From a bacterium (GTDB taxonomy: Bacteria > Gemmatimonadota > Glassbacteria > GWA2-58-10), in assembly GCA_021372515.1 (NCBI GenBank), contig JAJFUG010000171.1:1-42463 (forward strand): a DNA stretch of 42,463 nt, in the 5' to 3' direction. Shown piece after piece: positions 2,194 to 38,794 of the stretch. The stretch's first letter is position 1. The number at the start of each line of letters is the position of its first letter. A model generated the notes under the pieces. That model had not been told where the DNA came from, did no database searches, and was given only the letters and a program-made list of their open reading frames with translations. The translations under genes and the position numbers were made by a program.

Positions 2194-3816
2194 ATGGAGC
2201 CTGTCCTTTACGAGGTGACGCTCTGGACTTTTTTCGCCGGGATGCTGCTGCATTTCATCGGCCTGCTGCCGAAAGAGGGTTCCGCATCCGCGCGCTGGGT
2301 GGGACGCCTGGCCCTGCTGCTGATCGGCCTGGGCTGGGCCAGCCTGACCGTGACAATCGCCGGGCGCTGGCTGGCCCAGGGGCGGGTGCCCATTTCAAGC
2401 TCCTACGAGTACCTGAGCTTTTTGGCCTGGTTCGTGGCCCTGTTCTATTTCATCGTGATGTTCAAGGCGCGTTCGGCTTTCGTGGGGGCCTGCGTCTCGC
2501 CGGGGATTTTCCTGGCTGTTGTGTTCGCCGGGATGTATCCGCAGCGTCTGGAGATGACCCTGGTGCCGGCGTTGCAGTCCTACTGGCTCAAGATACATGT
2601 CTCGATGACCATCATCGGCGAGGCCGCCTTTGCCGTGGCTTTTGTCACCAGCGTGCTCTACCTGATCAAGAACGCCCAGCCCGAGAAAGTGAGCCGCGAG
2701 GCCAAGACCCGCAGCCTGTTGCTGCTGGCAGTGTCCCTCAGCGCCGGGATGCTGGTCTGCCTGGGCCTGCGCGCTGCCGGGATCACCCTGACCGGACTGG
2801 GTGGAGTCCAGTTGTTTATCAGCCTCATGGGCGGGGCGTTCCTGCTGGCCGTGCCGATTTATATCCTTCTCTGGCGCCGCCTGGTCGGGGGCGGTCCGGG
2901 CAATTACGGCGGCCTGCTGTTCGCCCTGAGCGTGCTGGCCCTTCTGGCCAGCGGCATGACCCTCGGCTCGCTGGTCAACCGCTCCACGGAAAAGATGCAA
3001 TCCCTGGCCGCGCGTATCCAGGCGGTGGATGAGCTGAGCGCATCCCTGCCCGCGGGCGTGGAAAGCCTGGATGAGGCGCTCTGGTCCACTGTCCGTCAGA
3101 CCCGGCAGGAGCGGCTGGACCTGTTCCTCGCCCTGGAGGCCCTTCACGCCCGGACCAAGCACACCCTGAGCCGGGAGGATGCCGCCGAGGTGCTGGCCGC
3201 GCACCCGCAGGCCGGCGAGACCCAGTTCCCCCTGACCCTGGGCGAGATACGCGAGGAGCGCCGCGGGCTTCAGCAAGCCCTGCACGAGCAGGACAATTTC
3301 ATCCGCGAGGCGGGCCTGCCGCTGAGCCTGGTCGCCCTGCAGACCCGCCGTAATCAAATAATCCAGCAGTATAACTCCCTGTTCCAGGAGAGCCTCCTGC
3401 CGCTGGAGAGCGGACGCGAGGCGGCGTTTATCGGCTACATGCTGCTGCTGGCTCTGCCGTTCTACGTGCTGTTCGCGTATCTGTCCGGGCGGCTGCGCCC
3501 GCGGGTGCCGTCGCTCGAGACCCTGGATTCCATGTCATACCGCACGGTGAGCCTGGGCTTTCCGATTTTCACTTTCGGCGCGCTGATCGCCGGGGCGGTC
3601 TGGGCGCACTACGCCTGGGGCAAGTGGTGGTCCAACGACCCCAAGGAGATGGGCAGCCTGATTGTCTGGCTGGTGTTCCTGGTCTACCTGCACGCACGCT
3701 ACGTGCGGCGCTGGAGCGGCAACCAGAGCGCCGTGGCGGCGATCCTTGGTTTCCTGTTCGCGGTGCTCACTTTCGTGGGCAACTCGGTGCTAGGTGGCCT
3801 GCACTCCTACGGTTGA
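2194..3816 (+). CDS. ccsA: CcsA/ResC-type cytochrome c assembly protein with a large internal insert
   Basis: Haem-handling half of the system II cytochrome c synthase. Seen: many membrane helices, the haem (WWD-type) motif at residues 475-485 read as 'WGKWWSNDPKE', and the conserved C-terminal 'GLHSYG'. Two things are odd. At 541 residues it is much longer than usual for CcsA (roughly 320), because a hydrophilic, probably helical stretch of about 150 residues (about 260-410, rich in E, R, Q and L) sits between membrane segments. The second Trp of the usual W-W-D order is Asn481. A GTG at 2188 is also in frame, but it abuts the AAGGGG site; the ATG at 2194 has normal spacing, so I chose it. 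It forms an operon with resB and is closed by the terminator at 3868-3903. Confidence 0.92.
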   Translation: MEPVLYEVTLWTFFAGMLLHFIGLLPKEGSASARWVGRLALLLIGLGWASLTVTIAGRWLAQGRVPISSSYEYLSFLAWFVALFYFIVMFKARSAFVGACVSPGIFLAVVFAGMYPQRLEMTLVPALQSYWLKIHVSMTIIGEAAFAVAFVTSVLYLIKNAQPEKVSREAKTRSLLLLAVSLSAGMLVCLGLRAAGITLTGLGGVQLFISLMGGAFLLAVPIYILLWRRLVGGGPGNYGGLLFALSVLALLASGMTLGSLVNRSTEKMQSLAARIQAVDELSASLPAGVESLDEALWSTVRQTRQERLDLFLALEALHARTKHTLSREDAAEVLAAHPQAGETQFPLTLGEIREERRGLQQALHEQDNFIREAGLPLSLVALQTRRNQIIQQYNSLFQESLLPLESGREAAFIGYMLLLALPFYVLFAYLSGRLRPRVPSLETLDSMSYRTVSLGFPIFTFGALIAGAVWAHYAWGKWWSNDPKEMGSLIVWLVFLVYLHARYVRRWSGNQSAVAAILGFLFAVLTFVGNSVLGGLHSYG

Positions 3817-3867
3817 TACGCTGGGATGGAAAGAGGTTCCCCCCGCGCACCGCGGCTGTTATCTTTG

Positions 3868-3903
3868 ACCGGACGGCTGAACTGGAGGCCGTCCGGTTTT
3901 TTG
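3868..3903 (+). terminator. Intrinsic terminator after resB-ccsA
   Basis: Perfect 10-bp stem ACCGGACGGC (3868-3877) / GCCGTCCGGT (3888-3897) with a 10-nt loop, followed at once by a T-run (3897-3902). It lies 52 nt after the ccsA stop and should end the cytochrome-assembly transcript. Confidence 0.93.
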
Positions 3904-3974
3904 TTGCCTTGGCGGACGAGCCGGTCGGAGCCTGGGACGCAGGGCCGAGTGTCAGCGAGAATCAGGAGTTTACC

Positions 3975-4002
3975 GTAGGGGCAACCGGCCGGTCGCCCCT
4001 GC
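3975..4002. repeat. Short interspersed palindrome (GTAGGGGC type)
   Basis: A 28-nt near-palindrome beginning GTAGGGGC and ending GCCCCTGC, with two mismatches between 14-nt arms that would still pair as G-U in RNA. It lies outside any gene I accept. Its ends resemble the palindromes at 4039-4058 and 38766-38794. Confidence 0.6.
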
Positions 4003-4038
4003 AGCGGGCTGATCGCTTCTTATATAGGTCCGAGGCTC

Positions 4039-4058
4039 GGGCACGCTGCAGCGTGCCC
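4039..4058. repeat. Perfect 20-bp palindrome (GGGCACGCTG / CAGCGTGCCC)
   Basis: Exact inverted repeat with no spacer, followed by CTAAG. It sits 36 nt after the preceding palindrome and 54 nt before the ABC ATPase start. No T-run follows, so it is not a standard terminator. It is either a short interspersed repeat or, less likely, a protein-binding site. Confidence 0.6.
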
Positions 4059-4112
4059 CTAAGTGAGATACAAAGCTGTGCGGATGACATTGAAATTTTT
4101 ATGGGAGCGGAT

Positions 4113-4943
4113 GTGTCTGAAAACGGCCTTGTTCTGGACAATCTTTCCTTTGCCTACGGCCCTGTGCTGCCCCCGGTGCTGAGCGGCCTTTCCGCCTGTC
4201 TGCCGCTGGCCGGGGTGAGCCTTATCCTTGGCCCCAACGCCGCGGGCAAGACCACCCTGGCCCGGGTGCTGGCCGGGCTGGACTCTCCGTCCTCCGGTGG
4301 GCTGGACTGGCCCCCGGTTACCGCCACGCCGGTGGGGGACTGGGAGCGCCCGCAGGCCTCGCTGGTGTTCGAGGAGCCGGAGTACCAGTTGCAGACTTTC
4401 GAGGTGGGCGAGGAGCTTTCCATCGGGCTGCTGCACTGCGGCGCACGGCTGGAGCAGCGGTGGGCGCGGGTGGCTGAGGTGGCATCCCGCCTGGGGTTCG
4501 ACAACTGCCTCGACACTCCGGTGGCCGAGCTGGAGGCGGATGAGCAGTTGGGCCTTCTGGCCGCGGCCCTGTTCGCCCAGGCCCCGCGGCTCATTGTCCT
4601 GGACTTCTCCCCGCGGCGTCTGGAGCCATCCCTGAGAGACAGGCTTTTCGCCCTGGCCCGCAGCGGCGCGGGGCCGGCCTTGCTCTTTACCAGCCGGGCG
4701 GCTGAGGATATCCTGCACCTGGCCCCGGGCGAGAAAGCTTTCCTGCTGCGGGAGGGAAAACTCACCGAGTTGGAAAGCCTGGAGCCCTCGGCCGCGAATG
4801 TCATGCTCCTGGCCGCGGCCGGCCTGGCCCTGCCGTGGTACGCCCCCCTGGCGCTGGAGCTTTGCGTACAGGGCAGGCTGGATCAGGCGCTGTTCCAGGA
4901 TAATGGCGCATTGCGCGACGCCCTGGCCCGGGCCGGAATCTGA
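4113..4943 (+). CDS. Orphan, degenerate ABC-type ATPase (CbiO/EcfA-like)
   Basis: ABC ATPase domain of about 276 residues resembling energy-coupling-factor ATPases. Seen: an intact Walker A 'GPNAAGKTT' (residues 40-48) and a Q-loop region 'LVFEEPEYQL' that matches the 'VFQ(N/D)PE.QL' of CbiO/EcfA but has Glu87 in place of Gln. The signature region reads 'ELEADEQLGLLAAAL' instead of LSGGQ. Walker B is 'LIVLDFSP', where Phe165 replaces the catalytic Glu, and the H-loop His appears to be Arg ('LLFTSRAAED'). It may bind ATP but probably hydrolyses it poorly, if at all. No EcfT or S-component gene is nearby. The GTG at 4113 follows GGGAG at good spacing; an ATG at 4101 lacks a ribosome site. Function unknown. 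Confidence 0.75.
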   Translation: MSENGLVLDNLSFAYGPVLPPVLSGLSACLPLAGVSLILGPNAAGKTTLARVLAGLDSPSSGGLDWPPVTATPVGDWERPQASLVFEEPEYQLQTFEVGEELSIGLLHCGARLEQRWARVAEVASRLGFDNCLDTPVAELEADEQLGLLAAALFAQAPRLIVLDFSPRRLEPSLRDRLFALARSGAGPALLFTSRAAEDILHLAPGEKAFLLREGKLTELESLEPSAANVMLLAAAGLALPWYAPLALELCVQGRLDQALFQDNGALRDALARAGI

Positions 4944-5217
4944 AGTCGGAGAGCCATGACAACCGCCCGGCTGCAACAGCGGTCAATCCCCGAAAGTCGG
5001 ATTCGCATACGCTCTTGCGGAACAAACCGGAGGCTGGTCAGTATTAAATGATGCTTGTCCGCATAGCGTGCGCCGAACCCGGGAGGGGCGGGACAGGGGA
5101 GGAGTTGTCGCAGAGCGGGAGGGGACCGAGGTTGAGGCGATGGCCGGCGCTTTCGTGGAACGCTGAACTGGAATGAACATTCAAGGAATTTTCCAGACTG
5201 TATCCCGGAGGTCCCGG

Positions 5218-9660: not shown

Positions 9661-12600
9661 ATGAACCGTTTCCAGCGTCTCTGTCTGCTTTGCCTGCTCG
9701 CCGCTCTGGTCCCGGCTGTTTCGACCGCCCGGGCGCAGAAAATTGAAGACGAGTTGGAGGCGGTGTTGCAGACCGCCCCACCCGACTCCGAGCTCACGGT
9801 GCTGGTGCGACCGTCCCTGGCGGTGGATGTCCTAGGCCTGGAAAACCAGCTCCGCGCCGGCCGGGCCTCCCGCGCCGAGCGTCACGGACGTATGCTGCGC
9901 GCCCTCAAGCAGAAAAGCGAGGCCTCCCAGGCCACGCTGCTTGGGCACCTGTCCCAGACCAAGCGTAAAGCCGGACCAATCCGCGAATACCAATCTTTCT
10001 GGATCACCAACCTGGTGGTGGTGCACGCCACGCCCGAGGGTGTGCGCCAGTTGGCCTCGCGTGCGGATGTGGGCCAGGTGCTGGCCAGCCGTAAAGTCTC
10101 CCTCGAGGAAAAGAAAAAGGAAGTCTCTACCACAGTGCAGGCGGATGCCAGCCTGGCCGCCTCCTCCGCGGTGTCTCTGTCCGCAGCCAAGTCTTTCAAC
10201 TGGGCCCTGACCCGCCTTAAGGTGCGCGAGCTGTGGAAACGCGGGATAACGGGACGGGGAATGCTGGTCGGGATAATCGACTCGGGAGTGGACGGCAACC
10301 ACCCGGCGCTCAAGAACAAGTGGCGCGGGGCCAACGGGGCCACCTCGGTCGAGAGTTGGTACGACCCGGTCACCGGCAGCACTTTCCCCATCGACGACCT
10401 CGGCATCACCCACGGCACCGGGGTGATGGGCTGTATCCTGGGCCAGGACGGGGCCGATACGCTGGGCATGGCCCCGGACGCCCAGTGGATCGCGGCCAAG
10501 GCTTTCGACAGCAACGGCAGCCCGACCAACGAAAGAATCCTCTCCTCGTTCCAGTGGATGGCCGACCCGGACAGCGACCCGGCCACTATCGACGATGTCC
10601 CGGATATCCTCAACCTCTCTTTCGCGGATGACGACACCCACGGCTGCGAGCAGTGGATGTGGGAGCCGATCCGCAACCTGACCGCCCTGGGAGTGACCGT
10701 GTTCATCGCCACAGGCAACGTGGGCGCGCGTGTCGGCTCGCCGGGCAGTAACCCCGAGTTCTTCGCGATCGGTCCCATCGACAGCCTGGACCAGCGCCCC
10801 TATTACGCCCTGATCGGGCCCTCGCTCTGCGACGGTAAAACTATCAAGCCGGACGTGATGGCGCCCGGCCACCAGGTGCTGACCACCCGCGGCTCGGTGG
10901 GAGGGGGCGGCTACACCACGATGAACGGCTCCTCGTTCGCCTCGCCGCTGGTGGCCGGGCTGGGTGCGCTGCTCCGTCAGTACAACCCCGAGCTCACCCC
11001 GGGCGAGGTCACCGCGGCGATCCGTAACAGCGCCGATGACGACACCCACACCGCCGGGCCGGACAACTACTACGGCTACGGGATCGTCAACGCCCCGGCC
11101 GCCCTGGGCAAGCTGACTGTCCCGCTCAAACCCTCGTTTGCCATCCTGGCGCTCAATGTGAGCGCGGGCGGAGACTCCCGGATCGACCCCGGCGAGCAGG
11201 CCAGCCTCTGGCTCACTGTCATAAACAACGGCGCCGCGGCTTCGAGTGTCTCGGCCAGCCTGCTCTCCTCCAGCCCGGATGTGAGTTTTACCAGCGCCAC
11301 GGCCTCTTTCGGCGCCATGACCACCGGCCAGAGCCGCGATAACCAGTCTCAGCCGTTCGGTCTCGCTTTCGGCGTGCATATCCCGCGCGGGGTGCTGCGC
11401 ACCTTCAAGCTGGTCCTGACCGCCGGGGCCGTGCGCGACACGGTGAGTTTCGCCCTGGCCGTGGGCGGCGAGCCGGAGCCGCCGCTGAATTCTTTCCTGG
11501 CCCACAACCTCAACCGGGCCGGGCTGTCGATCACCAACTACGGCGTGATCGGCACGGACGGTGACAAGGGCGGCGGGTTTGTCTATCCTGACGGGACAAG
11601 CCAGTCCAGGGACCAGCTTTTCCAGGGCGCGCTGATGCTGGCCACCGGGCCGACCACTATCTCGGATGCCTCGTACAACGAAAACAGCATGGGCGCTAAC
11701 AGCGTGAAGTTCAACCACGATTTCAGCGTGGTTCCGGGCGGCAACCTGGTCAAGGCGCAGCCCGGACAGTACGCCGACCAGGAGATAAGCGGGGTGTACA
11801 ACGACAGCCTGGCCGCCGTTCCTCTGCGGATCGAGGTCTCCCAGTACAGCTACGCCTGGAGCGACGCCGCGGACAGGGATTACGTGATCGTGGAGTACAA
11901 CCTCACCCAGACTAAAGGCAGCGGGGTGGACGGCCTGTACGTGGCCCAGCACATGGACTGGGACGTGGGCGGCAGCGGGGACAACGACCTGGCCGGGTTC
12001 GACCGCGCCGCGTCCCTGGCCTACATGTACGACAGCACTTCCGGCGCCTGGGTCGGCCACGCCCTTCTGACCCAGGCCGTGGCTGGCTACCGCGCCCTGA
12101 ATTTCGCGCGGGACATCCAGGACGGGTTCAGCACGGCGGAAAAGTTCGCCTCCATGACCACGGGCGGCGAGCGGGACAGCCTGTCCGGACCCAAGGGTGA
12201 CTGGAGCGAGCTGCTTTCGGCCGGGCCGCTGTTCCTCAAGCCGGGGCGTACTGTGCCCGTGGCCTGGGCCGTGATCGGGGGGGCGAGCCTGGAGGAGCTG
12301 CGCACGCGGGCCGCCGCGGCCAGAGTGCGCTACGCCCAGGTGGCGGCGCAGAAAGGGATCGACCTGGCCCCGCCGGTGATAAGCTCGCTCGTGCCACCGG
12401 ACCCCACTGCCGGGCTCGAAACACATACCGTGCGGGCGAGGATCGAGGACGGCTCGGATATAGAGCAGGCGGTGGTGTTGTGGCGGGTGGCCGGCGGTGC
12501 GACATTCTTCAAGTCCTCCTTCGGACAGACTGACAGCGCCGGCCTGCGCGCGGCCGGCATACCGGGGATGGTCGCCGGGACAACTGTGGAATACTATCTT

Positions 12601-13188
12601 CGCGCGGTGGACGCCATGGGCAACCAGGGTTTTCTGCCCGCGGGAGCGCCGTCGCAGGTGTTCTCTTTCACCGTGTCCGACAGCCACCCGCCCGAGATTT
12701 CCCTGGCCTCGGCCAGCGCCGACACCACGGCCGGAGCCCAGCGCTACTGGCTGCAGGCCACGGTCAAGGACGACAACCTGGCCCGCGTGCTGGCGGTCTG
12801 CGCCGTGGGGGACTCGCTTTTCAACGACAGCCTCGCCCTGAAACGGCTCGGCCAGAGCGATACGTTCCGCGGCGAGCTGACCGGCCTGGAGCGGGGGACC
12901 ACGGTGCGCTATTTCATCCTGGCGCAGGACCTGGGCGGCAATGTCTCGTTCGACCCGCCGCAGGCCCCCGCGCTCTACCTGTCGTTCCGGTTCACGCCGC
13001 CCTCGCCGGGGGATGGCGACCTGGACGGCAAGCTGAGCATTTTCGACCTGCTCACCCTTCTGCGGGTCCTGGGCCACAGCGACACACCCTCGCCGGAGCA
13101 GAAATACGCCCTCGACCTGGACCGCAACGGGCGGATCGACATTTTCGACCTGCTCGCCCTGCTGCACCTTCTGGCCGGCTCCGGCTGA
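9661..13188 (+). CDS. Secreted subtilisin-family (S8) serine peptidase with C-terminal dockerin-like module
   Basis: A 1,175-residue exported peptidase. Seen: a signal peptide ending near 'STARA', an inhibitor-like N-terminal region, then the S8 catalytic triad Asp207 ('IIDSGVDGNHP'), His251 ('THGTGVMG') and Ser425 ('NGSSFASP'), with the oxyanion segment 'IATGNVG'. After the catalytic domain come beta-sandwich regions, including an Ig-like stretch with 'YYLRAVDAMGNQG' and 'RYFILAQDLGGNVSF'. The last 59 residues (1117-1175) are two calcium-loop repeats, 'GDLDGKLSIFDLLTLLRVL' and 'LDLDRNGRIDIFDLLALL', which look like a type I dockerin. AGGAGAACG precedes the ATG. The gene stands alone. A closely similar module occurs in the protein at 30705. 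No cohesin partner is visible here. Confidence 0.92.
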   Translation: MNRFQRLCLLCLLAALVPAVSTARAQKIEDELEAVLQTAPPDSELTVLVRPSLAVDVLGLENQLRAGRASRAERHGRMLRALKQKSEASQATLLGHLSQTKRKAGPIREYQSFWITNLVVVHATPEGVRQLASRADVGQVLASRKVSLEEKKKEVSTTVQADASLAASSAVSLSAAKSFNWALTRLKVRELWKRGITGRGMLVGIIDSGVDGNHPALKNKWRGANGATSVESWYDPVTGSTFPIDDLGITHGTGVMGCILGQDGADTLGMAPDAQWIAAKAFDSNGSPTNERILSSFQWMADPDSDPATIDDVPDILNLSFADDDTHGCEQWMWEPIRNLTALGVTVFIATGNVGARVGSPGSNPEFFAIGPIDSLDQRPYYALIGPSLCDGKTIKPDVMAPGHQVLTTRGSVGGGGYTTMNGSSFASPLVAGLGALLRQYNPELTPGEVTAAIRNSADDDTHTAGPDNYYGYGIVNAPAALGKLTVPLKPSFAILALNVSAGGDSRIDPGEQASLWLTVINNGAAASSVSASLLSSSPDVSFTSATASFGAMTTGQSRDNQSQPFGLAFGVHIPRGVLRTFKLVLTAGAVRDTVSFALAVGGEPEPPLNSFLAHNLNRAGLSITNYGVIGTDGDKGGGFVYPDGTSQSRDQLFQGALMLATGPTTISDASYNENSMGANSVKFNHDFSVVPGGNLVKAQPGQYADQEISGVYNDSLAAVPLRIEVSQYSYAWSDAADRDYVIVEYNLTQTKGSGVDGLYVAQHMDWDVGGSGDNDLAGFDRAASLAYMYDSTSGAWVGHALLTQAVAGYRALNFARDIQDGFSTAEKFASMTTGGERDSLSGPKGDWSELLSAGPLFLKPGRTVPVAWAVIGGASLEELRTRAAAARVRYAQVAAQKGIDLAPPVISSLVPPDPTAGLETHTVRARIEDGSDIEQAVVLWRVAGGATFFKSSFGQTDSAGLRAAGIPGMVAGTTVEYYLRAVDAMGNQGFLPAGAPSQVFSFTVSDSHPPEISLASASADTTAGAQRYWLQATVKDDNLARVLAVCAVGDSLFNDSLALKRLGQSDTFRGELTGLERGTTVRYFILAQDLGGNVSFDPPQAPALYLSFRFTPPSPGDGDLDGKLSIFDLLTLLRVLGHSDTPSPEQKYALDLDRNGRIDIFDLLALLHLLAGSG

Positions 13189-30704: not shown

Positions 30705-32750
30705 ATGGACTCCATGCGCGGACGTATTGGTTGGCTTTGGCTCACGGGCCTGTGGCTCGCTTTCCTGCCCATCGCCGCTTATCCACAGACTCAGGTTGCA
30801 GGCGGCGCTGCGGCGGTCCTGCGCGGCGACCTGGATGAAAACCAGCGGGTGGACATTTTCGACCTTCTGGGCCTGCTGCGCTATGTAGGCGGCGGCAGTC
30901 CCGCGGATGCACGTATAAGGCGGATCGCCGACCTGGACCGCTCGGGCGACGGCAAGGTGACGGTGTTCGACCTGCTGGCCATGCTGCGTGTCCTCTCGGG
31001 CGCGGTCAAGCCGGATACGCTGCTGTTCTCCAGCCCGTTCCGACGGGTTTGGGCGCTGGGCGATGGCGAAAAGGTGTTCCGCGAGAACCTGGACCATCTC
31101 TCCAGCCACGGCAACGGGGTCTGGGACGGCGACACGATCCGCTTGAGCGGCCTGTACAACGAGGTGCTGGCTTTTCAGGTGATCTGCGAGTCCGACAGTC
31201 TCGGGTCCTCGCAGGTGGATATCCGGATGGACCCACCCGCGAGGATGGAGGGCGGGCCGGTGATTGGGGGCGCGGGCGGGCCGGAGTACGGACCCGGCGG
31301 TTACGTGGAGGTGTTCAGCGAGCATTACCTCCACGTGGTGAACCCTACCGTTCTCTACTGGTCCTACGGCTCATCCGCCTCGGCCCCGGCGCACATGACC
31401 GGCTGGATCCCGGATGCCCTGATCACCCCGGACTCGAAGCCCGGCCTGGGCGGTTTCCCCCTCGACATCGAACCCCGTCAGAACCAGGGGTTCTGGTTCG
31501 ACCTCTACCTGCCACGCGACAGTGTCACCCACCCGGCCGGGGTTTACTACAGCACCGTGCGGGTGCGCACCCAGGGCTGGGAGGTGGAAACGCTCCCGGT
31601 CAAGATTACCCTTCTGCCGCATTTCCTGCCCGATTCCACCCATTCGAATGTCTGGCTTTACCACGACATCGTGGAGCGCTATTACAGCGATTACATGTCG
31701 AGCCAGGAGATCGAGCGAATGCTCAAATACACCGCCCACCGTCACCGGATTGATCTGGTGGGCGGGTTTAGCGTGCATTACTCGGCTTTCGACAGCACTA
31801 TGATGGAAGCCTACGCGCCGTATCTTGACGGTAGCGCGTTCACCGTGGCCGCCGGCTATCAGGGGCCCGGCCAGGGACAGGGGGAAAAGCTTTTCCCAAT
31901 CGGGATGTATGGTTCGAGTGTGATGGGCGACACCTGGAGCGAAACCTACCGCAACTCCGACCTCTGGGTGAACTGGTTCGAGGCCCACGCCCCGCAGGTC
32001 AGGTATTTCTGGTACCTGATCGATGAGCCGGGCGAGGACATGTTCAGCTGGATCGAGCAGCGCGCCGGCTGGATACACTACAATCCCGGTCCGGGCAAAC
32101 GCTTGCCGATTTTCATCACTCGCCCCTACACCGCCGAGCTGGACAAGGATATCGACCTCTGGGCCGGCGGTGACGGGGTGCCGCTGGATAAACTGGCCGC
32201 TTTGCAGAGCCAGGGCAAGGACCACTGGTTCTACAACGGCAGCCGACCGCGCTACGGCTCTCATATCCTTGAGGACGAGGCGGTGGACCTCCGGGTAAAC
32301 GCCTGGATCAAGTACATGTACGGAATCAACACCTGGTTCCTCTGGCACGGCACGCACTGGATACACAACGGCTCGGGTCCGCGCGCAGGCCAACCCCAGA
32401 ACGTGTTCGTGGACCCGGTCACTTTTATCGGCAACCCGACCACGTTCGGCAACGGGGATGGGGTCGTGTTCTACCCGGGCCGCGAGCCGTTCTTCACCGA
32501 CCAGGACCGCGGGGTGGACCATCTGTTCGGCTCGATCCGGCTGAAAAACATCCGCCGCGGCCAGCAGGATTTCGAGCTTCTGCGCCTGGCCGAGCAGAAA
32601 GCCGGGCGGGACGCCGTGCTGGAGATCATCCACTCGGTGGTGCCCAAGGCGATGAGCGAGGTGAACATGAACGCGAAAGTGCCCTGGTCGCAGCGTGGGG
32701 ATGACTACGACACGGCGCGGGCGAAGCTGCTGGAAATGCTCGGCCGCTGA
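30705..32750 (+). CDS. Secreted DUF4091/GH123-like protein with N-terminal dockerin-like module
   Basis: Exported protein of 681 residues. Seen: signal peptide ('WLAFLPIAAYPQTQ'), then at 41-100 two calcium-loop repeats, 'GDLDENQRVDIFDLLGLLR' and 'ADLDRSGDGKVTVFDLLAML', closely like those at the end of the subtilase at 9661. The rest resembles the glycoside hydrolase 123 / DUF4091 family: a beta domain, a barrel with an Asp440-Glu441 pair in 'YLIDEPGED', the motif 'GYQGPGQGQ' (384-392), and the C-terminal 'IRRGQQDFELLRL' typical of DUF4091. GH123 enzymes are beta-N-acetylgalactosaminidases using an Asp-Glu pair; the substrate here is unknown. The ATG has no strong ribosome site. It heads a glycan-type locus with the genes to 38.7 kb. 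Confidence 0.8.
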   Translation: MDSMRGRIGWLWLTGLWLAFLPIAAYPQTQVAGGAAAVLRGDLDENQRVDIFDLLGLLRYVGGGSPADARIRRIADLDRSGDGKVTVFDLLAMLRVLSGAVKPDTLLFSSPFRRVWALGDGEKVFRENLDHLSSHGNGVWDGDTIRLSGLYNEVLAFQVICESDSLGSSQVDIRMDPPARMEGGPVIGGAGGPEYGPGGYVEVFSEHYLHVVNPTVLYWSYGSSASAPAHMTGWIPDALITPDSKPGLGGFPLDIEPRQNQGFWFDLYLPRDSVTHPAGVYYSTVRVRTQGWEVETLPVKITLLPHFLPDSTHSNVWLYHDIVERYYSDYMSSQEIERMLKYTAHRHRIDLVGGFSVHYSAFDSTMMEAYAPYLDGSAFTVAAGYQGPGQGQGEKLFPIGMYGSSVMGDTWSETYRNSDLWVNWFEAHAPQVRYFWYLIDEPGEDMFSWIEQRAGWIHYNPGPGKRLPIFITRPYTAELDKDIDLWAGGDGVPLDKLAALQSQGKDHWFYNGSRPRYGSHILEDEAVDLRVNAWIKYMYGINTWFLWHGTHWIHNGSGPRAGQPQNVFVDPVTFIGNPTTFGNGDGVVFYPGREPFFTDQDRGVDHLFGSIRLKNIRRGQQDFELLRLAEQKAGRDAVLEIIHSVVPKAMSEVNMNAKVPWSQRGDDYDTARAKLLEMLGR

Positions 32751-32844
32751 GGCGGGCGGACCGCCCCCGCTGGGTGTGGAGACGGTGCTGATTCCTTAAG
32801 CAATGGCAAGCTGAAATTTATCCGACTGCAGAGAGGGGATCGAA

Positions 32845-33435
32845 ATGCGGACGCTGCGGGTTGTGTCGCTGCTTGGCAGCCCCAGGAAAAACGGGAATAC
32901 GGCGCGGGTGCTCAAATGGGTCGAGGAGAGCCTGCAGAAGGCGGGGCACACGGTGGAGCGCCTGGATATTCCGGCGCTGGGCCTGGAGGGCTGCTCGGGC
33001 TGCCATCTTTGCCAGAACAGCCCGGCGGAGGATTTGGTCTGCTCCCGTCACGACCGCGGGCTGGAGGTGTTCGGCAAGATGATCGCCGCGGATGCGGTGA
33101 TCTACGCCACGCCGCTCTACTGGTGGGATTTCACGGCCCAGATCAAGCCCCTGATCGACCGTCACCTCTGCCTGGTGCGCGGCACGGATGACCCGGCGAC
33201 CCACCGCTCACATCTGGCGGGCAAGCGCCTGGGCCTTCTGGTCACGGCCTACGACCACGCCGGCGAGGGCAACAGCGACCTTATAAGCGAGATGTTCCGC
33301 CGCATGGCCGAGTTCTGCAAGGCCAGCGTGGCGGCCGAGCTGGTGGTGCCTTTCCTGCGCACGCCCCTGGACCTGGGCCCGATGCAGCAGGACAGCGCCC
33401 GCCGGTTCGCCGAGGAGCTGGTCGGCGTGGCCTGA
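32845..33435 (+). CDS. NADPH-dependent FMN reductase / flavodoxin-fold protein
   Basis: FMN-binding protein of 196 residues. Seen: 'SLLGSPRKNGNTARVLKWVE' (about 8-27), the phosphate loop of the NADPH-FMN reductase and iron-sulfur flavoprotein group, 'GCSGCHLCQ' with closely spaced cysteines, 'ADAVIYATPLYWWDFTAQIK' (flavin site) and 'LLVTAYDHAGEGN'. The Cys pattern suggests the iron-sulfur flavoprotein-like subgroup, but a full cluster motif cannot be confirmed. ATG with GAGAGGGGATCGAA upstream. It sits between the two GH123-like genes and is convergent with the symporter. The redox partner is unknown, and a role in sugar processing is only suggested by position. Confidence 0.85.
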   Translation: MRTLRVVSLLGSPRKNGNTARVLKWVEESLQKAGHTVERLDIPALGLEGCSGCHLCQNSPAEDLVCSRHDRGLEVFGKMIAADAVIYATPLYWWDFTAQIKPLIDRHLCLVRGTDDPATHRSHLAGKRLGLLVTAYDHAGEGNSDLISEMFRRMAEFCKASVAAELVVPFLRTPLDLGPMQQDSARRFAEELVGVA

Positions 33436-33466
33436 GGGCGCTGTCCCGTGTGAGGCTCTCCCGGCC

Positions 33467-35266
33467 CTACTGCCGGGCGGCCAGGTGTGTCTGCTCGGTG
33501 TCGTGGCGGAACATCTCCAGCCGCCAGATCACCGCGCCCAGGACCACTGACAGGCACATCATCCCGGCGCCCTTGAAATACGAGCCGAACAGGATCGAGC
33601 CGGTCCCGAAGATGAAGGAGAACAAGGCCACCGCGCCCAGGGCGAACGAAATGATGTTGAACGCCAGGGGCGGCCCGGCCGGGAGCTCGTGCTCGGGCAC
33701 CTGACGGGTGATGCGACGCCAGAGCAGCCCGCCGGGGTTGACTTTCCGCACGAAATTCTTGAGCTTCTCATCCGACACCGGCTTGGTGAGAAGAGTCACG
33801 CTGATCCAGCCGGTCACGCTGAACAGGCAGATGAACATGTAGCGGTAGCCCTCGGAGAATGCGATCCCGTTCAGTTCGAGCACGTTGATCACCACGCAGC
33901 CCACAATGGACAGAACATAGGCGGTGATCTCGCTCCAGGCGTTGATCCGCCACCAGAACCAGCGCATGATCCAGACCGCGCCCAGCCCGCTGAACAACTC
34001 GGCCATGAACTTCCAGGCATCCGCCAGTGAATCGGTCATGGTCCAGACCAGGATGCCGAAAGCCAGCACCACCAGCATCGCCAGCCGTCCGACCCAGATG
34101 TAGTGTTTCTGCGAGGCGTCCGGACGGATGAAGCGCTTGTAAAAATCGTTGATCATGTAGCTGGAGCCCCAGTTGATCAGACCGGTGACCGAGGACATGA
34201 ACGCGCTCAGGAACGCGGCGAACATGATCCCCCGCATCCCGGCGGGCAGGTATTTCTTGATCATCAGCGGGTAGGCCAGCTTGTGGTCGGTCAGGGTGGG
34301 GAAGTCGGCCAGCGAGATCAGGGCCACCAGGATCCAGGGCCACATCAGGAAGCCGTAGTAGACGATGTTGAACCAGATGCCGGCCAGGAACGCGTGACGG
34401 TCGCTCTTGGTGGCCATGATACGCTGGATGAACATCCCGTTGCCGTCGGCTTTCTCGCTCGACCACCAGAGGAAGAAAATGTAGGTGAAAAACAGCGGCC
34501 AGGTCAGCTCGCTGCCCGGCTTGGAGAACGGCTTGTGCGCGCCCGCGGTGGGCAGGAAACTGAGCAGGCTCTGCGTGGTCTCGCCACCGAACACCGAGAC
34601 CAGCTTGGTCTCGATCCCGCCCAGGCCGCCGATCGCGCTCACCGCCATCACGGTCATGAACACCGAGCCCAGGAACGCGATGCTGAACTGCACCACCTCG
34701 TTGGCCACTACGCCCCACAAACCGGCGGCCAGTGCGTAGAACATGGTCACGAACAGCAGGACGGCCAGCGATAAATACTCGTTCCACCCCAGTAGTACGG
34801 TTATGAACGACTGCATTGCGAGCATAATAAAACCGATGTTCAGCGAGCTGTAGGCAATGCCGTAGAAAATGCTCTGGAACCCGCGCAGCACACTGGCCGA
34901 GCGGCCCTCGTAGCGCTCCTCGATGATCTCGAGCTCAGTGAGGATTCTGGCCCGGCGCCAGAAGCGGAAGAACACGAACGTGGCGCACAGGTTGGTCAGA
35001 GCGAAACACCAGAGGAACCAGTTGCCGGAGATGCCATCGCGCCGCACGAGCTCGGTCACCATGAATGGCGTGTCCGCGGCGAACCCGGTGGCCGCAATGG
35101 CGGTGCCGGCCACCCACCAGGGCAGGGCGCGGCCGCTGAGGAAGAAATCCTCCATGCTCTTGCTGGCGCGTTTCGAAAAGTAGAGTCCTATTCCCAGGAT
35201 CAGGATGAAATAAATGACTATCACCAGCCAGTCGATGAAAATGAAATTCATGGTGCCCAGTTCCAT
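33467..35266 (-). CDS. Sodium:solute symporter (SSS family)
   Basis: Inner-membrane transporter of 599 residues with about 14 predicted helices. Seen: 'DWLVIVIYFILILGIGLYFS' at the N-terminus, 'SMEDFFLSGRALPWWVAGTA' followed by 'IAATGFAADTPF', 'FFRFWRRARILTELEIIEER' and 'GIMFAAFLSAFMSSVTGLIN'. These are typical of SSS symporters, some of which carry sugars, sialic acid or amino acids. The substrate cannot be told from sequence alone; the position between two GH123-like genes suggests a sugar or amino sugar released by them. ATG 35266 has GGAG 7 nt upstream. It is transcribed away from the large GH123-like gene, with its own promoter at 35344-35372. Confidence 0.92.
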   Translation of the reverse strand: MELGTMNFIFIDWLVIVIYFILILGIGLYFSKRASKSMEDFFLSGRALPWWVAGTAIAATGFAADTPFMVTELVRRDGISGNWFLWCFALTNLCATFVFFRFWRRARILTELEIIEERYEGRSASVLRGFQSIFYGIAYSSLNIGFIMLAMQSFITVLLGWNEYLSLAVLLFVTMFYALAAGLWGVVANEVVQFSIAFLGSVFMTVMAVSAIGGLGGIETKLVSVFGGETTQSLLSFLPTAGAHKPFSKPGSELTWPLFFTYIFFLWWSSEKADGNGMFIQRIMATKSDRHAFLAGIWFNIVYYGFLMWPWILVALISLADFPTLTDHKLAYPLMIKKYLPAGMRGIMFAAFLSAFMSSVTGLINWGSSYMINDFYKRFIRPDASQKHYIWVGRLAMLVVLAFGILVWTMTDSLADAWKFMAELFSGLGAVWIMRWFWWRINAWSEITAYVLSIVGCVVINVLELNGIAFSEGYRYMFICLFSVTGWISVTLLTKPVSDEKLKNFVRKVNPGGLLWRRITRQVPEHELPAGPPLAFNIISFALGAVALFSFIFGTGSILFGSYFKGAGMMCLSVVLGAVIWRLEMFRHDTEQTHLAARQ

Positions 35267-35343
35267 GCCGCAGCTCCGGGGTCAGGTTATTAAGGCTGAA
35301 AACGGTTGTTGTCGGCGAATGTGGTCGGAGGAAACAGAGGCCT

Positions 35344-35372
35344 AATTTATCGTCACGCCCACGGCTGAACAA
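35344..35372 (-). promoter_or_regulatory. Promoter of the symporter gene
   Basis: Minus strand: TTGTTC (35367-35372), 17-nt spacer, TAAATT (35344-35349). Predicted start near 35337, about 70 nt before the ATG. The -35 box is weaker than others in the window, which suits an activated or regulated promoter. Confidence 0.55.
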
Positions 35373-35444
35373 GAATAAAATCTTTCCGTGGGAATAAGCC
35401 TGGAACTCTGTCAGCACTTGAGCTGGGCAGCGGACCCCGAGTTT

Positions 35445-35460
35445 GTTCAAGCCCTTGAAC
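35445..35460. promoter_or_regulatory. Operator candidate: perfect GTTCAAG-CC-CTTGAAC repeat
   Basis: A 7-2-7 inverted repeat whose right arm contains the -35 box (TTGAAC, 35455-35460) of the promoter for the large GH123-like gene. A protein bound here would block RNA polymerase, as expected for a repressor site. The symporter promoter lies 73 nt away and could be co-regulated. Confidence 0.55.
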
Positions 35461-35483
35461 TAAGAGGGGGGGCGTTGTATTTT
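35455..35483 (+). promoter_or_regulatory. Promoter of the large GH123-like gene
   Basis: TTGAAC (35455-35460), 17-nt spacer, TATTTT (35478-35483). Predicted start near 35490, about 118 nt before the ATG at 35608. The -35 box lies inside the inverted repeat at 35445-35460. Confidence 0.6.
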
Positions 35484-35607
35484 GAGCGCTCGATCCTGTC
35501 CGCGAGGCCGGACCTGCGGGCTGGGTTCGTTGATAGAACGACGGCAAGCGATACATTCACCTCGATCCTGATGTTCTTCACAGTCACCAGCCGGGAGGTA
35601 CAACGAG

Positions 35608-38600
35608 ATGGACCTGCGACGTCTTGCACTTATTCTTCTGCTGCTTGTCCCGCAAGCTCTTCCGGCCGAGAAAGCCACGCTGCCGGTGACAATGGACACC
35701 GGACTTTCCTCCACGCGCGGCCATTACGATGACAACAGCGGGGCCTCGGTCACGGTGCCGCTGCGTCAGAACCAGAACTGGAGCGGGTTCGAGACCAAGG
35801 CCTGGCTGGGCGATTTCGACAGCAAGGCGATCCGCGGCTGGAGCGTGGAGCGTGCCTGGCTGAACCTGTTCCTGGCCCGTGGCGACCTTTACGGCCTGGG
35901 GCTGTGCACGGTGCTGGCGCCCTGGAAAGAGGGCTGGGGTGTCAACGGCGCCACCGGCCGGGGCGGGGCGAGCTGGAACTGGGCCAGCGAGCCGTCCGAC
36001 CCGGCGCATCCCGCTCCCGGCGACCTGTGGTGCTGGCCGGGCAGCGGAGTCTACAGCGTGAGCTGGTTCCATCCGGATGCCCGCTACTGGCATGTCGATC
36101 CCGGCATGATCGAGCGCAGCGAGGCGGACAGCGGCCGCGCGGTGCATATCCGCGTCCCGGTGGACCCGAAGCTGGTCGAATCCCTGGCCTGCGGGCTGTC
36201 CTACGGCCTGGTCCTGACCGATGACAAGGGCCAGGTGGCCGAGGGCCTCACCCTCAAGGGCGATGCCGTGCCCTATGTCACGGATGACTCCCACGACACG
36301 TTCATGTACACCGGCGACATCCAGGACCCGGCCCTGCGGCCCTACCTGGAGGTCGAGGGCGGCCCGGCCGACCATACCGCCCCGGGCGCGGTCGAGGCCC
36401 TGGCCGTGGCCGAGGTGGAGCCCTACGACCCCTCGGTCACGCTCTCGTTCAAGGCCGCCGGGGATGACGGGGCCGCCAGGGGGGCCGCCCTGGGCTACGA
36501 CGTGCGCTACGCCGCCTCGAAGATAGATCAGAGCGCCTGGGACAGCGCCGCGCGGGTTCCGCTCTGGCTGGTCCCCAAGCCGGAGGCGCCCGGCACGCTC
36601 CAGAAAATGAGGATATTCGACATCCCAGCCGGCCACTATTTCGTGGCGCTGCGGGCTATGGATGAGGCGGGCAACCTGGGGCCGCTCGCCCAGGTCGAGC
36701 TGACCCTGCCCGAATTGCAGAGCGCCGCCCTGGCCGCTGCGCCGTTGGAGTCCGGCGCTGGAGCCGGGAAAGCGGTCGCATTCGAGGACAAGCTCGAGCT
36801 GTGGGCCTGCCCCGACCTGGCCAAGGTGGACCCGGTGGGCGGTGGTGTGCTGCTGGATGAGGAAAACTATGCACAGGACGAGGCTTTCCAGCGCGAGAAC
36901 CCGGCCTGGTCGAGCGGGAAACGCACCGTGTTTCTGGAGGCCGGACGCGGCGAGGTGGCGGCTTTCCAGTTGTTGCTGGGACGGTTGGGCCAGACGAAGC
37001 TGACCAACGTGAAAGTGAGCCTGAGCGACCTCTCGGGCGACCCGGGCGAGATAAAATCTCCGGGCAATGTCAGCCTGTTCCGGGTCTGGTACCTGGATGT
37101 CGAGCCCCGGCCGGAGGAACTGACCGGCCCCTGGGAACTGGTGGAACAGAAGGACCACAAGGCCGCCTGGCACGGCGATGCCTGTCTGCCGTTGGAGGCC
37201 CCGTTCGACCCGTCGTTCAACCTGCCCACCCGCGACAACATGGGTGATTTCCAGCGCTGGCAGTCGGTCTGGACCGACCTGTACGTCCCGGCCGGGACCA
37301 AGCCGGGCCTGTACCAGGGGAAAATCACAGTCACCGCGGATGAGCTGAAACAGCCGGCGTTCCTGATCCTGATGCTCAAGGTGCTGCCGTTCACCATCCC
37401 GGCCCAGCCCACCTGGCCCATCGATCTTAACTGCTACGCCTACGGGATGACCCGTGTTTCAGGAGTGGACATCCAGACCGAGACCAAGCGTTTCCTGGAT
37501 GTGGAGCGCAGTTTCTACCAGGTGGGGCATGCCCACCGCTCCACGCTGAACGTGTTGCCCTACGAGCAGGACGGGACCGTGCAGATGCTGGCCGCACCCG
37601 ATCTGGCCGGCAAGGGCGCCGCGGTCAAGGTGAGCGACTGGAGCAAGTGGGACAGCCGCTACGGTCCCTATCTGAGCGGCAAGGCGTTCACCCCGGCCAT
37701 GGGCTACCGCGGCCCGGGCCAGGGCCAGCCCCTGACCCACATCTACCTGCCGTTCAACGAGGACTGGCCGATGTCGCTCAAGGAGTATTACAGCGACTAC
37801 AAAGAGCTGGCCAGCCGCGTGGATTTCGCCGAGTGGGCCAAGACCTCGCGTTCTCCGGCCGAGGCCTGTGACAGGCAGTACTGCCAGGGTTTCTCCTCTG
37901 TGGTGCGCCAGTATTTCGAACACTTTGACAAGCAAGGCTTCAAGGGCACCGCTTTCCAGGTTTACTTCAACAATAAGTACTACTACAAGGTGCCGTTTTT
38001 CCGCATGCCCTACAAGCTCCACGGCAGCTCGTTCTGGCTGCTGGATGAGCCGGTGGACTACGATGACTACGAGGCCAACCGCTTTTACATGGACCTGGTG
38101 CGCCAGGGCTACCTGGCCTCGGGCAAGAACGATATCGCGCTGCATTACCGCACGGATGTCTCGCAGCCCGAGCTGGCCCGCGGCCTGTGGGACGGCCTGT
38201 GCAACCTGTGGGACAACTCCGGCCTGCTGGGCTGCGCCTCCACGGCCATGTTCCGCATGCGCCGTCTGCCGGGTGAGAACCACTGGCGCTACGGCGGCTC
38301 ACCGAAGGTATCGGGACGCCTGATCGAGCTGCAGGAGAATTTCCTCACCCTCTGGGCCATCGGGGCCACCGGCGCGCTGCCTTACTGGGATGTCATGGGC
38401 GGCGGCGACTGGTTCAATCCGAATGACCTGTCGGTTTACTACAGCGGGAAGAACTACGCGCGCAGCGGGAAGAATTACGACGGCGCGCTGCCGGGTATGC
38501 GGCTCAAGGCGATCCGCCGGGCGCAGCAGGACATCGAGTACCTGAACCTGCTGGCCACGAAAAAGGGCTGGAGCTACCTCAAGCTGCGCCGCGCCCTCAC

Positions 38601-38706
38601 CCCGTTCGCGGATGATCCCACGGCCTGGCCGCTCAGTTTCCATCACCTGGATTCGAGGAAGCTGCTAGAACTGCGCCGCGCCGTGGCTGCGGAGCTGAGC
38701 AAATAG
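35608..38706 (+). CDS. Large secreted DUF4091/GH123-like protein with Fn3-like domain
   Basis: Exported protein of 1,032 residues. Seen: signal peptide ('LALILLLLVPQALPA'), an N-terminal beta domain resembling disaggregatase-related or CBM-like modules (about 25-255), a fibronectin-III-like region (about 260-370, ending 'YFVALRAMDEAGNLGPLAQV'), then the GH123/DUF4091 part. That has a beta region (about 430-610), a barrel with the motif 'GYRGPGQGQ' (699-707) and the dyad Asp813-Glu814 in 'FWLLDEPVDYDDYEA', and C-terminal 'AIRRAQQDIEYLNLL'. It is a distant relative of the protein at 30705 but lacks its dockerin-like module and has extra N-terminal domains. Likely glycan hydrolase, substrate unknown. 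The ATG follows GGGAGGTACAACGAG. Confidence 0.83.
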   Translation: MDLRRLALILLLLVPQALPAEKATLPVTMDTGLSSTRGHYDDNSGASVTVPLRQNQNWSGFETKAWLGDFDSKAIRGWSVERAWLNLFLARGDLYGLGLCTVLAPWKEGWGVNGATGRGGASWNWASEPSDPAHPAPGDLWCWPGSGVYSVSWFHPDARYWHVDPGMIERSEADSGRAVHIRVPVDPKLVESLACGLSYGLVLTDDKGQVAEGLTLKGDAVPYVTDDSHDTFMYTGDIQDPALRPYLEVEGGPADHTAPGAVEALAVAEVEPYDPSVTLSFKAAGDDGAARGAALGYDVRYAASKIDQSAWDSAARVPLWLVPKPEAPGTLQKMRIFDIPAGHYFVALRAMDEAGNLGPLAQVELTLPELQSAALAAAPLESGAGAGKAVAFEDKLELWACPDLAKVDPVGGGVLLDEENYAQDEAFQRENPAWSSGKRTVFLEAGRGEVAAFQLLLGRLGQTKLTNVKVSLSDLSGDPGEIKSPGNVSLFRVWYLDVEPRPEELTGPWELVEQKDHKAAWHGDACLPLEAPFDPSFNLPTRDNMGDFQRWQSVWTDLYVPAGTKPGLYQGKITVTADELKQPAFLILMLKVLPFTIPAQPTWPIDLNCYAYGMTRVSGVDIQTETKRFLDVERSFYQVGHAHRSTLNVLPYEQDGTVQMLAAPDLAGKGAAVKVSDWSKWDSRYGPYLSGKAFTPAMGYRGPGQGQPLTHIYLPFNEDWPMSLKEYYSDYKELASRVDFAEWAKTSRSPAEACDRQYCQGFSSVVRQYFEHFDKQGFKGTAFQVYFNNKYYYKVPFFRMPYKLHGSSFWLLDEPVDYDDYEANRFYMDLVRQGYLASGKNDIALHYRTDVSQPELARGLWDGLCNLWDNSGLLGCASTAMFRMRRLPGENHWRYGGSPKVSGRLIELQENFLTLWAIGATGALPYWDVMGGGDWFNPNDLSVYYSGKNYARSGKNYDGALPGMRLKAIRRAQQDIEYLNLLATKKGWSYLKLRRALTPFADDPTAWPLSFHHLDSRKLLELRRAVAAELSK

Positions 38707-38765: not shown

Positions 38766-38794
38766 GTAGGGGAGGGTTTGAAACCCTCCCCTAC
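38766..38794. repeat. Perfect 14-1-14 palindrome (GTAGGGGAGGGTTT arms)
   Basis: Arms GTAGGGGAGGGTTT and AAACCCTCCCCTAC around a central G, between two convergent genes. The GTAGGGG...CCCCTAC ends match the family of short palindromes at 3975-4002. It could also act as a two-way terminator hairpin, but there is no T-run on either side. Confidence 0.7.

Follow-up and report, generated by a model that had tools for sequence, protein, structure and literature searches.

The closest described relatives of the locus analysed here are enzymes of the GH123 superfamily: NgaCa from Cohnella abietis, a Group 1 β-N-acetylgalactosaminidase that releases oligosaccharides [PDB-id: 8k2f and 8k2g (PMC11087588)], NgaAt (Group 2), NgaDssm (Group 3), and the founding GH123 members BvGH123 and CpNga123. 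PMC11087588 reports nine residues as strictly conserved in the characterised set, among them the glycine at position 427 of NgaLy; hardly any soluble enzyme was obtained with G427A, and with G427V there was none. Judging by titles and by its own text, this is the only publication found that treats DUF4091 as an enzyme family. The DNA studied is a 42,463-nucleotide contig (the window; JAJFUG010000171.1, here C171) of a Candidatus Glassbacteria genome (GCA_021372515.1, here G000 or the own genome; 4.87 Mb, 222 contigs, 99.5% complete). It encodes two divergent proteins of this type, P0001 and P0002, within the following group of genes.

30705–32750, + strand: P0001, predicted secreted DUF4091/GH123-superfamily glycosidase, 681 amino acids, signal-like N-terminus
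32845–33435, + strand: P0004, FMN_red-family flavoprotein (PF03358, 74.7 bits)
33467–35266, − strand: P0003, sodium:solute symporter (SSF; PF00474, 127.9 bits)
35608–38706, + strand: P0002, GH123-like protein, 1032 amino acids, with an N-terminal accessory region of 399 residues and a GH123-like core

We consider it fairly likely that P0001 is a secreted retaining β-N-acetylhexosaminide glycosidase that may dock to a partner protein and supply a symporter, and that P0002 is a second member of the superfamily. A sequence-only reading of the window had described both proteins as GH123-like, each with an Asp-Glu dyad in a DEP sequence and a DUF4091 tail of the form IRR(G/A)QQD(F/I)E, and had placed an SSS symporter and an FMN (flavin mononucleotide) reductase-like gene between them. 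Sequence profiles and predicted folds bear out the family, the Pfam matches agree with the two intervening genes, and the dyads (440/441 in P0001, 813/814 in P0002, each in DEP) and tails (residues 616–624 and 969–977) are as described. The core fold of NgaCa is common to P0001 and P0002.

Predicted fold and active site of P0001

A profile built from P0001 and 29 relatives (alignment A3, 30 rows) gave 11 matches in the PDB at E ≤ 0.01, all to GH123-superfamily β-N-acetylgalactosaminidases or hexosaminidase, including NgaCa (E = 9.4e-61), NgaDssm (3.3e-33), NgaAt (4.1e-20) and BvGH123 (3.7e-16). The family model PF13320 matches P0001 marginally (23.7 bits vs a cut-off of 23.1). The AlphaFold 2 model of P0001 has a mean predicted local distance difference test score (pLDDT) of 84.8, with the catalytic region mostly above 90, and contains the N-terminal β-sandwich and the (β/α)8 barrel of GH123 type. 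Ranks 1–22 of a Foldseek search with this model all belong to the superfamily, and VIA-align superimposes it on NgaCa with a Z-score of 39.8 [root-mean-square deviation (r.m.s.d.) 3.0, 462 aligned], followed by NgaDssm (36.0), NgaP2 (34.1), NgaAt (27.4), BvGH123 (26.2) and CpNga123 (24.5); Z is thus 24–40 across all known groups and falls to 11.0 at the first entry outside them. Sequence identity is about 21% to NgaCa over the structural alignment, 18% to NgaDssm, 17% to NgaAt, 14% to BvGH123 and 12% to CpNga123. By sequence and by predicted fold, P0001 is a DUF4091/GH123-superfamily enzyme. The residues and segments that bear on its activity are these.

32022–32027, + strand: D440-E441, predicted catalytic pair
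32232–32234, + strand: Y510, predicted acetamido-contacting tyrosine (NgaLy Y392)
32331–32333, + strand: T543, at the place of NgaLy G427
32550–32576, + strand: IRRGQQDFE, DUF4091 tail of P0001

The dyad directly follows a DSSP strand (433–439), at the end of β4, and aligns with the Asp-Glu pairs of NgaCa, NgaDssm and NgaAt. D440, E441, Y510, Y590 and R612 are present in 30/30 rows of A3, W264 and W547 in 29/30 and D237 in 27/30. Y510 and W547 match NgaLy Y392 and W431, and D237, W264, Y590 and R612 match the domain-interface residues D95, W115, Y466 and R478; the role assigned to the tyrosine follows PMC11087588 together with family knowledge. P0001 resembles NgaCa in the dyad, the acetamido tyrosine and the interface Asp, Trp, Tyr and Arg, shares fold, dyad, Tyr and Trp with NgaDssm and NgaAt and, by alignment, would share the substrate-assisted catalytic apparatus as well as the fold with BvGH123 and CpNga123.

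P0001 retains eight of the nine residues reported as strictly conserved; the ninth is T543. At this position alignment A1 (13 rows) has threonine in 11 rows, valine in 2 and glycine in none, and the four A3 rows with glycine (4/30) all lie outside the P0001 clade. Because the glycine is replaced, we file the clade, on its sequences, as a GH123 variant, GH123-like but without a feature that is reported to mark the groups described. The clade covers at least seven phyla-level labels; its named relatives are Candidatus Glassbacteria records, one of them labelled Gemmatimonadales. The tree was a quick one, with Shimodaira–Hasegawa-like approximate likelihood ratio test (SH-aLRT) support only and five long own-genome or Planctomycetota branches; it left out two relatives present in A3, L089:6024 and the gappy L094 (L numbers denote loci), and L101 was excluded from all alignments. 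It was made without the sequences of solved enzymes and therefore gives no placement of the clade among Groups 1–4.

Several further superfamily genes were seen. The P0001 orthologue of L084 (7899–10003) is split over two overlapping frames, through a frameshift or an assembly error. Two P0001 paralogues without a dockerin (3106–4962 and 10510–12345 of L029, on contig C162 of the own genome) stand in a cluster with beta-helix, ROK regulator, AXE1-like esterase, GDSL and Gfo/Idh proteins, and a Bacteroidales record (L089, 1–9737) has a run of five consecutive GH123-like genes. GH123_cat matches number 4 to 12 per genome in G000, G001, G003, G005, G007 and G009, all of the window's family; eight further genomes tried from the phylum have at most one each.

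Gene neighbourhood

The proposal that the four genes form one unit fails in the relatives' loci, where they are not conserved together. P0003 is on the opposite strand, so the four genes are not a single operon. Quite probably they are a chance neighbourhood, in which the pairing of P0001 with the symporter is old and the FMN gene and P0002 arrived separately. The linkage of P0001 to the symporter is found in three genera: in L105 eight genes of the window, as far as P0001, stand in the same order, with the symporter (74%) nearby, and in L081 the P0001 orthologue occurs together with the symporter (77%). Both loci have the order efflux protein, FG-GAP/RGL11-like protein, symporter, PcRGLX-like protein, in L105 by frame resemblance only. 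Gene order up to P0001 is also kept in L084, and both L084 and L105 show synteny in the placing of P0001 behind PNP. Orthologues of P0002 are found at other sites, with an HtpG-like frame next to them in three genomes (L052, L053 and L054), and a tblastn search with P0004 gave no match in 39 relatives' loci. On these gene orders, the link between P0001 and the symporter is old, and P0002 and the FMN gene were added locally; P0004, with no relative in the 39 loci, was dropped as a member and is probably outside the system. The one arrangement that speaks for a connection is that P0003 and P0002 are divergent neighbours and may share a control region. The names HtpG, PNP, BshC, YggS and DivIVA were taken from reading frames, with no family search.

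The solved chains nearest to P0003 are SGLT1 (E = 6.9e-35), vSGLT (1e-30) and SiaT (1.9e-16). Because these nearest solved relatives are sugar symporters, the P0003 profile suits a sugar-type cargo, without naming it. No SusC/SusD was seen among the four genes, the only ones looked at for it and with no family search made. Predicted promoters and terminators carried no signal, at 2 promoters against 1.4 and 6 terminators against 5.8 expected from shuffles. One terminator-like element follows P0002.

38766–38794, 3′ of P0002: inverted repeat with a 13-bp stem, terminator-like, from a consensus scan only

The second protein, P0002

The N-terminal 399 residues of P0002 have no Pfam match at E 0.1, and the Pfam search gave no PF13320 match in the protein. 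In the structural comparison, VIA-align places the core on NgaCa with a Z-score of 27.8 (r.m.s.d. 2.8, 444 aligned), the 17 best entries are all of the GH123 superfamily and the next unrelated one has Z 11.1; as modelled, P0002 has the GH123/DUF4091 fold. Its landmarks are as follows.

37957–37989, + strand: QVYFNNKYYYK, residues 784–794, an invariant stretch before the dyad that competes for the end of β4
38044–38049, + strand: D813-E814, probable catalytic pair (predicted)
38512–38538, + strand: IRRAQQDIE, DUF4091 tail of P0002

The expectation that both Asp-Glu pairs align with the GH123 catalytic pair held for P0001; in P0002 an insertion stands in front of D813-E814. In the eight P0002-type rows of alignment A2 (L052 left out), Q784, Y786, N788, N789, K790, Y791, Y792 and K794 are invariant, so that a conserved QxYxNNKYYxK precedes the dyad by about 25 residues. 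A homologue on contig C5 of the own genome reads VYLNGLDES at the corresponding site, and because this is a short form the sequences suggest that P0002 carries an insertion directly before its dyad.

These invariant columns also admit the reading that P0002 is not an active GH123-type enzyme, with β4 ending in FQVYFNNK, N788-N789 at the place of the Asp-Glu pair, and D813-E814 in an inserted strand. The model has strand pieces at FQVYF followed by low confidence, and the only piece that a P0002-only profile aligns in this region, weakly (4.0 bits), is the helix before the BvGH123 dyad (330–355). We regard this as rather unlikely. D813-E814-P815 is likewise invariant in 8/8 rows, the model continues after the dyad in the correct order (helix 4, strands 5–7, Y895), and the C5 short form joins the NN-type and Asp-Glu elements. 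A wider profile (A5, 27 rows) puts the pair in a single column in 27/27 rows, a column that alignment can force. D813-E814 is probably, though not certainly, the catalytic pair. P0002 has glycine (G922) at the position of NgaLy G427, as do all eight A2 rows, followed by Tyr at +4 (Y926) and Trp at +5 (W927, in 4/8 rows), vs Trp at +4.

The GYxGPG motif

The motif GY(Q/R)GPGQGQ had been recorded at one site in each protein, and the corresponding DNA pattern occurs in the window at exactly these two sites, both on the + strand.

31854–31880, + strand: GYQGPGQGQ, P0001 residues 384–392, in the loop between α2 (364–375) and β3 (396–399)
37702–37728, + strand: GYRGPGQGQ, P0002 residues 699–707, likewise between α2 and β3

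Two matches were reached by 0/100 dinucleotide-preserving shuffles (mean 0.00), and the occurrence of the pattern is not chance. Among 298 genomes of the phylum, GYxGPG[QE]G[QE] matches 9 times, in 5 genomes that all belong to the family of the window; every match lies in a GH123-like open frame, and the reversed pattern gives 0 in all 298. The suggestion that GPGQGQ is itself a subfamily signature was not upheld, the exact form being present in only 4/47 GH123-like rows; the signature is GYxGPG, which, in this or a near form, stands in register in 35/47 rows, comprising 28/28 of the P0001 clade and seven others (P0002, two of its three orthologues, L102, L089:1 and the proteins on C5 and C163 of the own genome). 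It is absent from 12/47 rows, which include L051 (a P0002 orthologue), three paralogues of P0002 type and four further members from the own genome.

The motif is ordered in both models (block pLDDT 91–97), where DSSP puts it after helix 2 and before strand 3. Because an α2–β3 site in a (β/α)8 barrel opposes the active site, the topology of the models leans towards a place on the far face. As an active-site loop the motif was set aside on this position before β3, though not finally: a profile alignment to NgaDssm pairs it with EGGHLGGRSSDW, possibly a strand end at the active-site side. The aligned NgaDssm stretch has no GYxGPG, and the residues around the motif correspond to a segment of NgaCa not covered by the profile alignment.

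Dockerin and cohesin modules

P0001 also has a domain that the sequence-only reading overlooked.

30825–30989, + strand: dockerin type I domain of P0001, residues 41–95 (PF00404)

It scores 23.0 bits, and 27.6 in a second search, with a cut-off of 22.9, and the orthologue in G001 (C17:9489–9665) likewise has a dockerin; NgaCa, unlike P0001, has no dockerin match. Across the own genome there are 33 matches to dockerin and 11 to cohesin (PF00963; one of the 11 below cut-off). Two cohesins and one dockerin each occur in short proteins on C27 (L117:1784–2917) and C126 (L118:9391–10701), and a 3107-residue protein on C180 (L120:5267–14587) combines cohesins with immunoglobulin-like repeats and a FlgD_ig tail. 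The window encodes a second dockerin protein at 9661–13188 (+ strand), a subtilase (PF00082, 151 bits) in which the dockerin is C-terminal.

Cohesin and dockerin modules also occur outside cellulosomes, and for that reason a complex here is a possibility and not a finding. It is quite doubtful, though conceivable, that Candidatus Glassbacteria form an extracellular cohesin–dockerin complex outside the Bacillota that docks this GYxGPG-bearing, glycine-lacking GH123-superfamily clade and degrades N-acetylated polysaccharides. According to a 2026 paper (PMC12997984), descriptions of cellulosomes are confined to the Firmicutes. A paper on Latescibacteria mentions neither cohesins nor dockerins. 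As in the cohesin–dockerin systems it covers (cellulosomes, the Limousia mucinolysome), a dockerin-bearing glycosidase is found here in a cohesin-bearing genome; unlike in those, as far as they are described there, the dockerin of P0001 is N-terminal, the organism is outside the Bacillota and the docking is predicted from genes.

Substrate and proposed function

Neighbouring genes, picked by eye from frame starts (10 + 10), were searched with Pfam. GH20 stands near a P0001-type gene in four Bacteroidota loci (L085, L087, L088 and L093, of 24 named, the others not screened for GH20), and L087 also has NagA (TIGR00221, 237.5 bits, above the curated cut-off). GH20 in these four loci and nagA in L087 support an N-acetylhexosamine as the substrate, as far as gene content can. 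GH20 has 3 to 10 matches per genome in Glassbacteria. N-acetylgalactosamine (GalNAc) would be the best guess from family knowledge.

P0001 would cut β-N-acetylhexosaminide bonds, most likely those of β-GalNAc, by substrate-assisted catalysis. E441 would be the acid/base, D440 would orient the 2-acetamido group and stabilise its charge, Y510 would hold the carbonyl and W547 would lie under the sugar. Since the β2–α2 stretch of P0001 is short, an open cleft is probable, and the enzyme may release oligosaccharides as the Group 1 enzyme NgaCa does. The N-terminal dockerin may tether P0001 to a protein with cohesins encoded in the same genome, and P0003 probably imports a released sugar with sodium. 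P0002 would be a second, independently placed superfamily member with an extra N-terminal region.

Several points weigh against this. P0001 has a threonine at the reportedly invariant glycine position, and its dockerin barely exceeds the cut-off in the first search. The P0002 model has a mean pLDDT of only 71, below 50 at residues 784–810, and the P0002-only profile fails to align across the dyad with any solved chain. In Glassbacteria the P0001 loci have pectin-lyase-like (RGL11-like, PcRGLX-like) and heparinase II/III-like neighbours, which would fit uronic-acid polysaccharides equally, and nagA exceeds the NCBIfam cut-off in 0/6 Glassbacteria genomes. No published assay of any member of the P0001 clade was found in the literature (subscription papers and CAZy lay outside the search).

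That P0001 and P0002 combine a retained GH123 fold with action on a different sugar, such as a uronic-acid-rich or pectin-like polysaccharide, with a different use of the dyad, is unlikely: it draws on L081 (by Pfam) and L105, where an outer-membrane efflux protein and the RGL11-like, symporter and PcRGLX-like genes given above come after the P0001 orthologue, and on a heparinase II/III-like neighbour in L082, but Y510 and the Asp-Glu pair, by which known enzymes hold the acetamido group, do not vary in 30/30 rows and GH20 adjoins in the four Bacteroidota loci.

Implications

The family of enzymes that cut β-GalNAc linkages was expanded in 2024 to five groups, and the distance of the P0001 clade from every solved member matches the distances between those groups; the clade has also lost a residue reported as essential for solubility. 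No published study of a Glassbacteria glycoside hydrolase or dockerin was found in the literature, and the dockerin link would make cohesin–dockerin docking testable in this lineage. If active, the P0001 clade would widen the family again and test how the conserved glycine is compensated.

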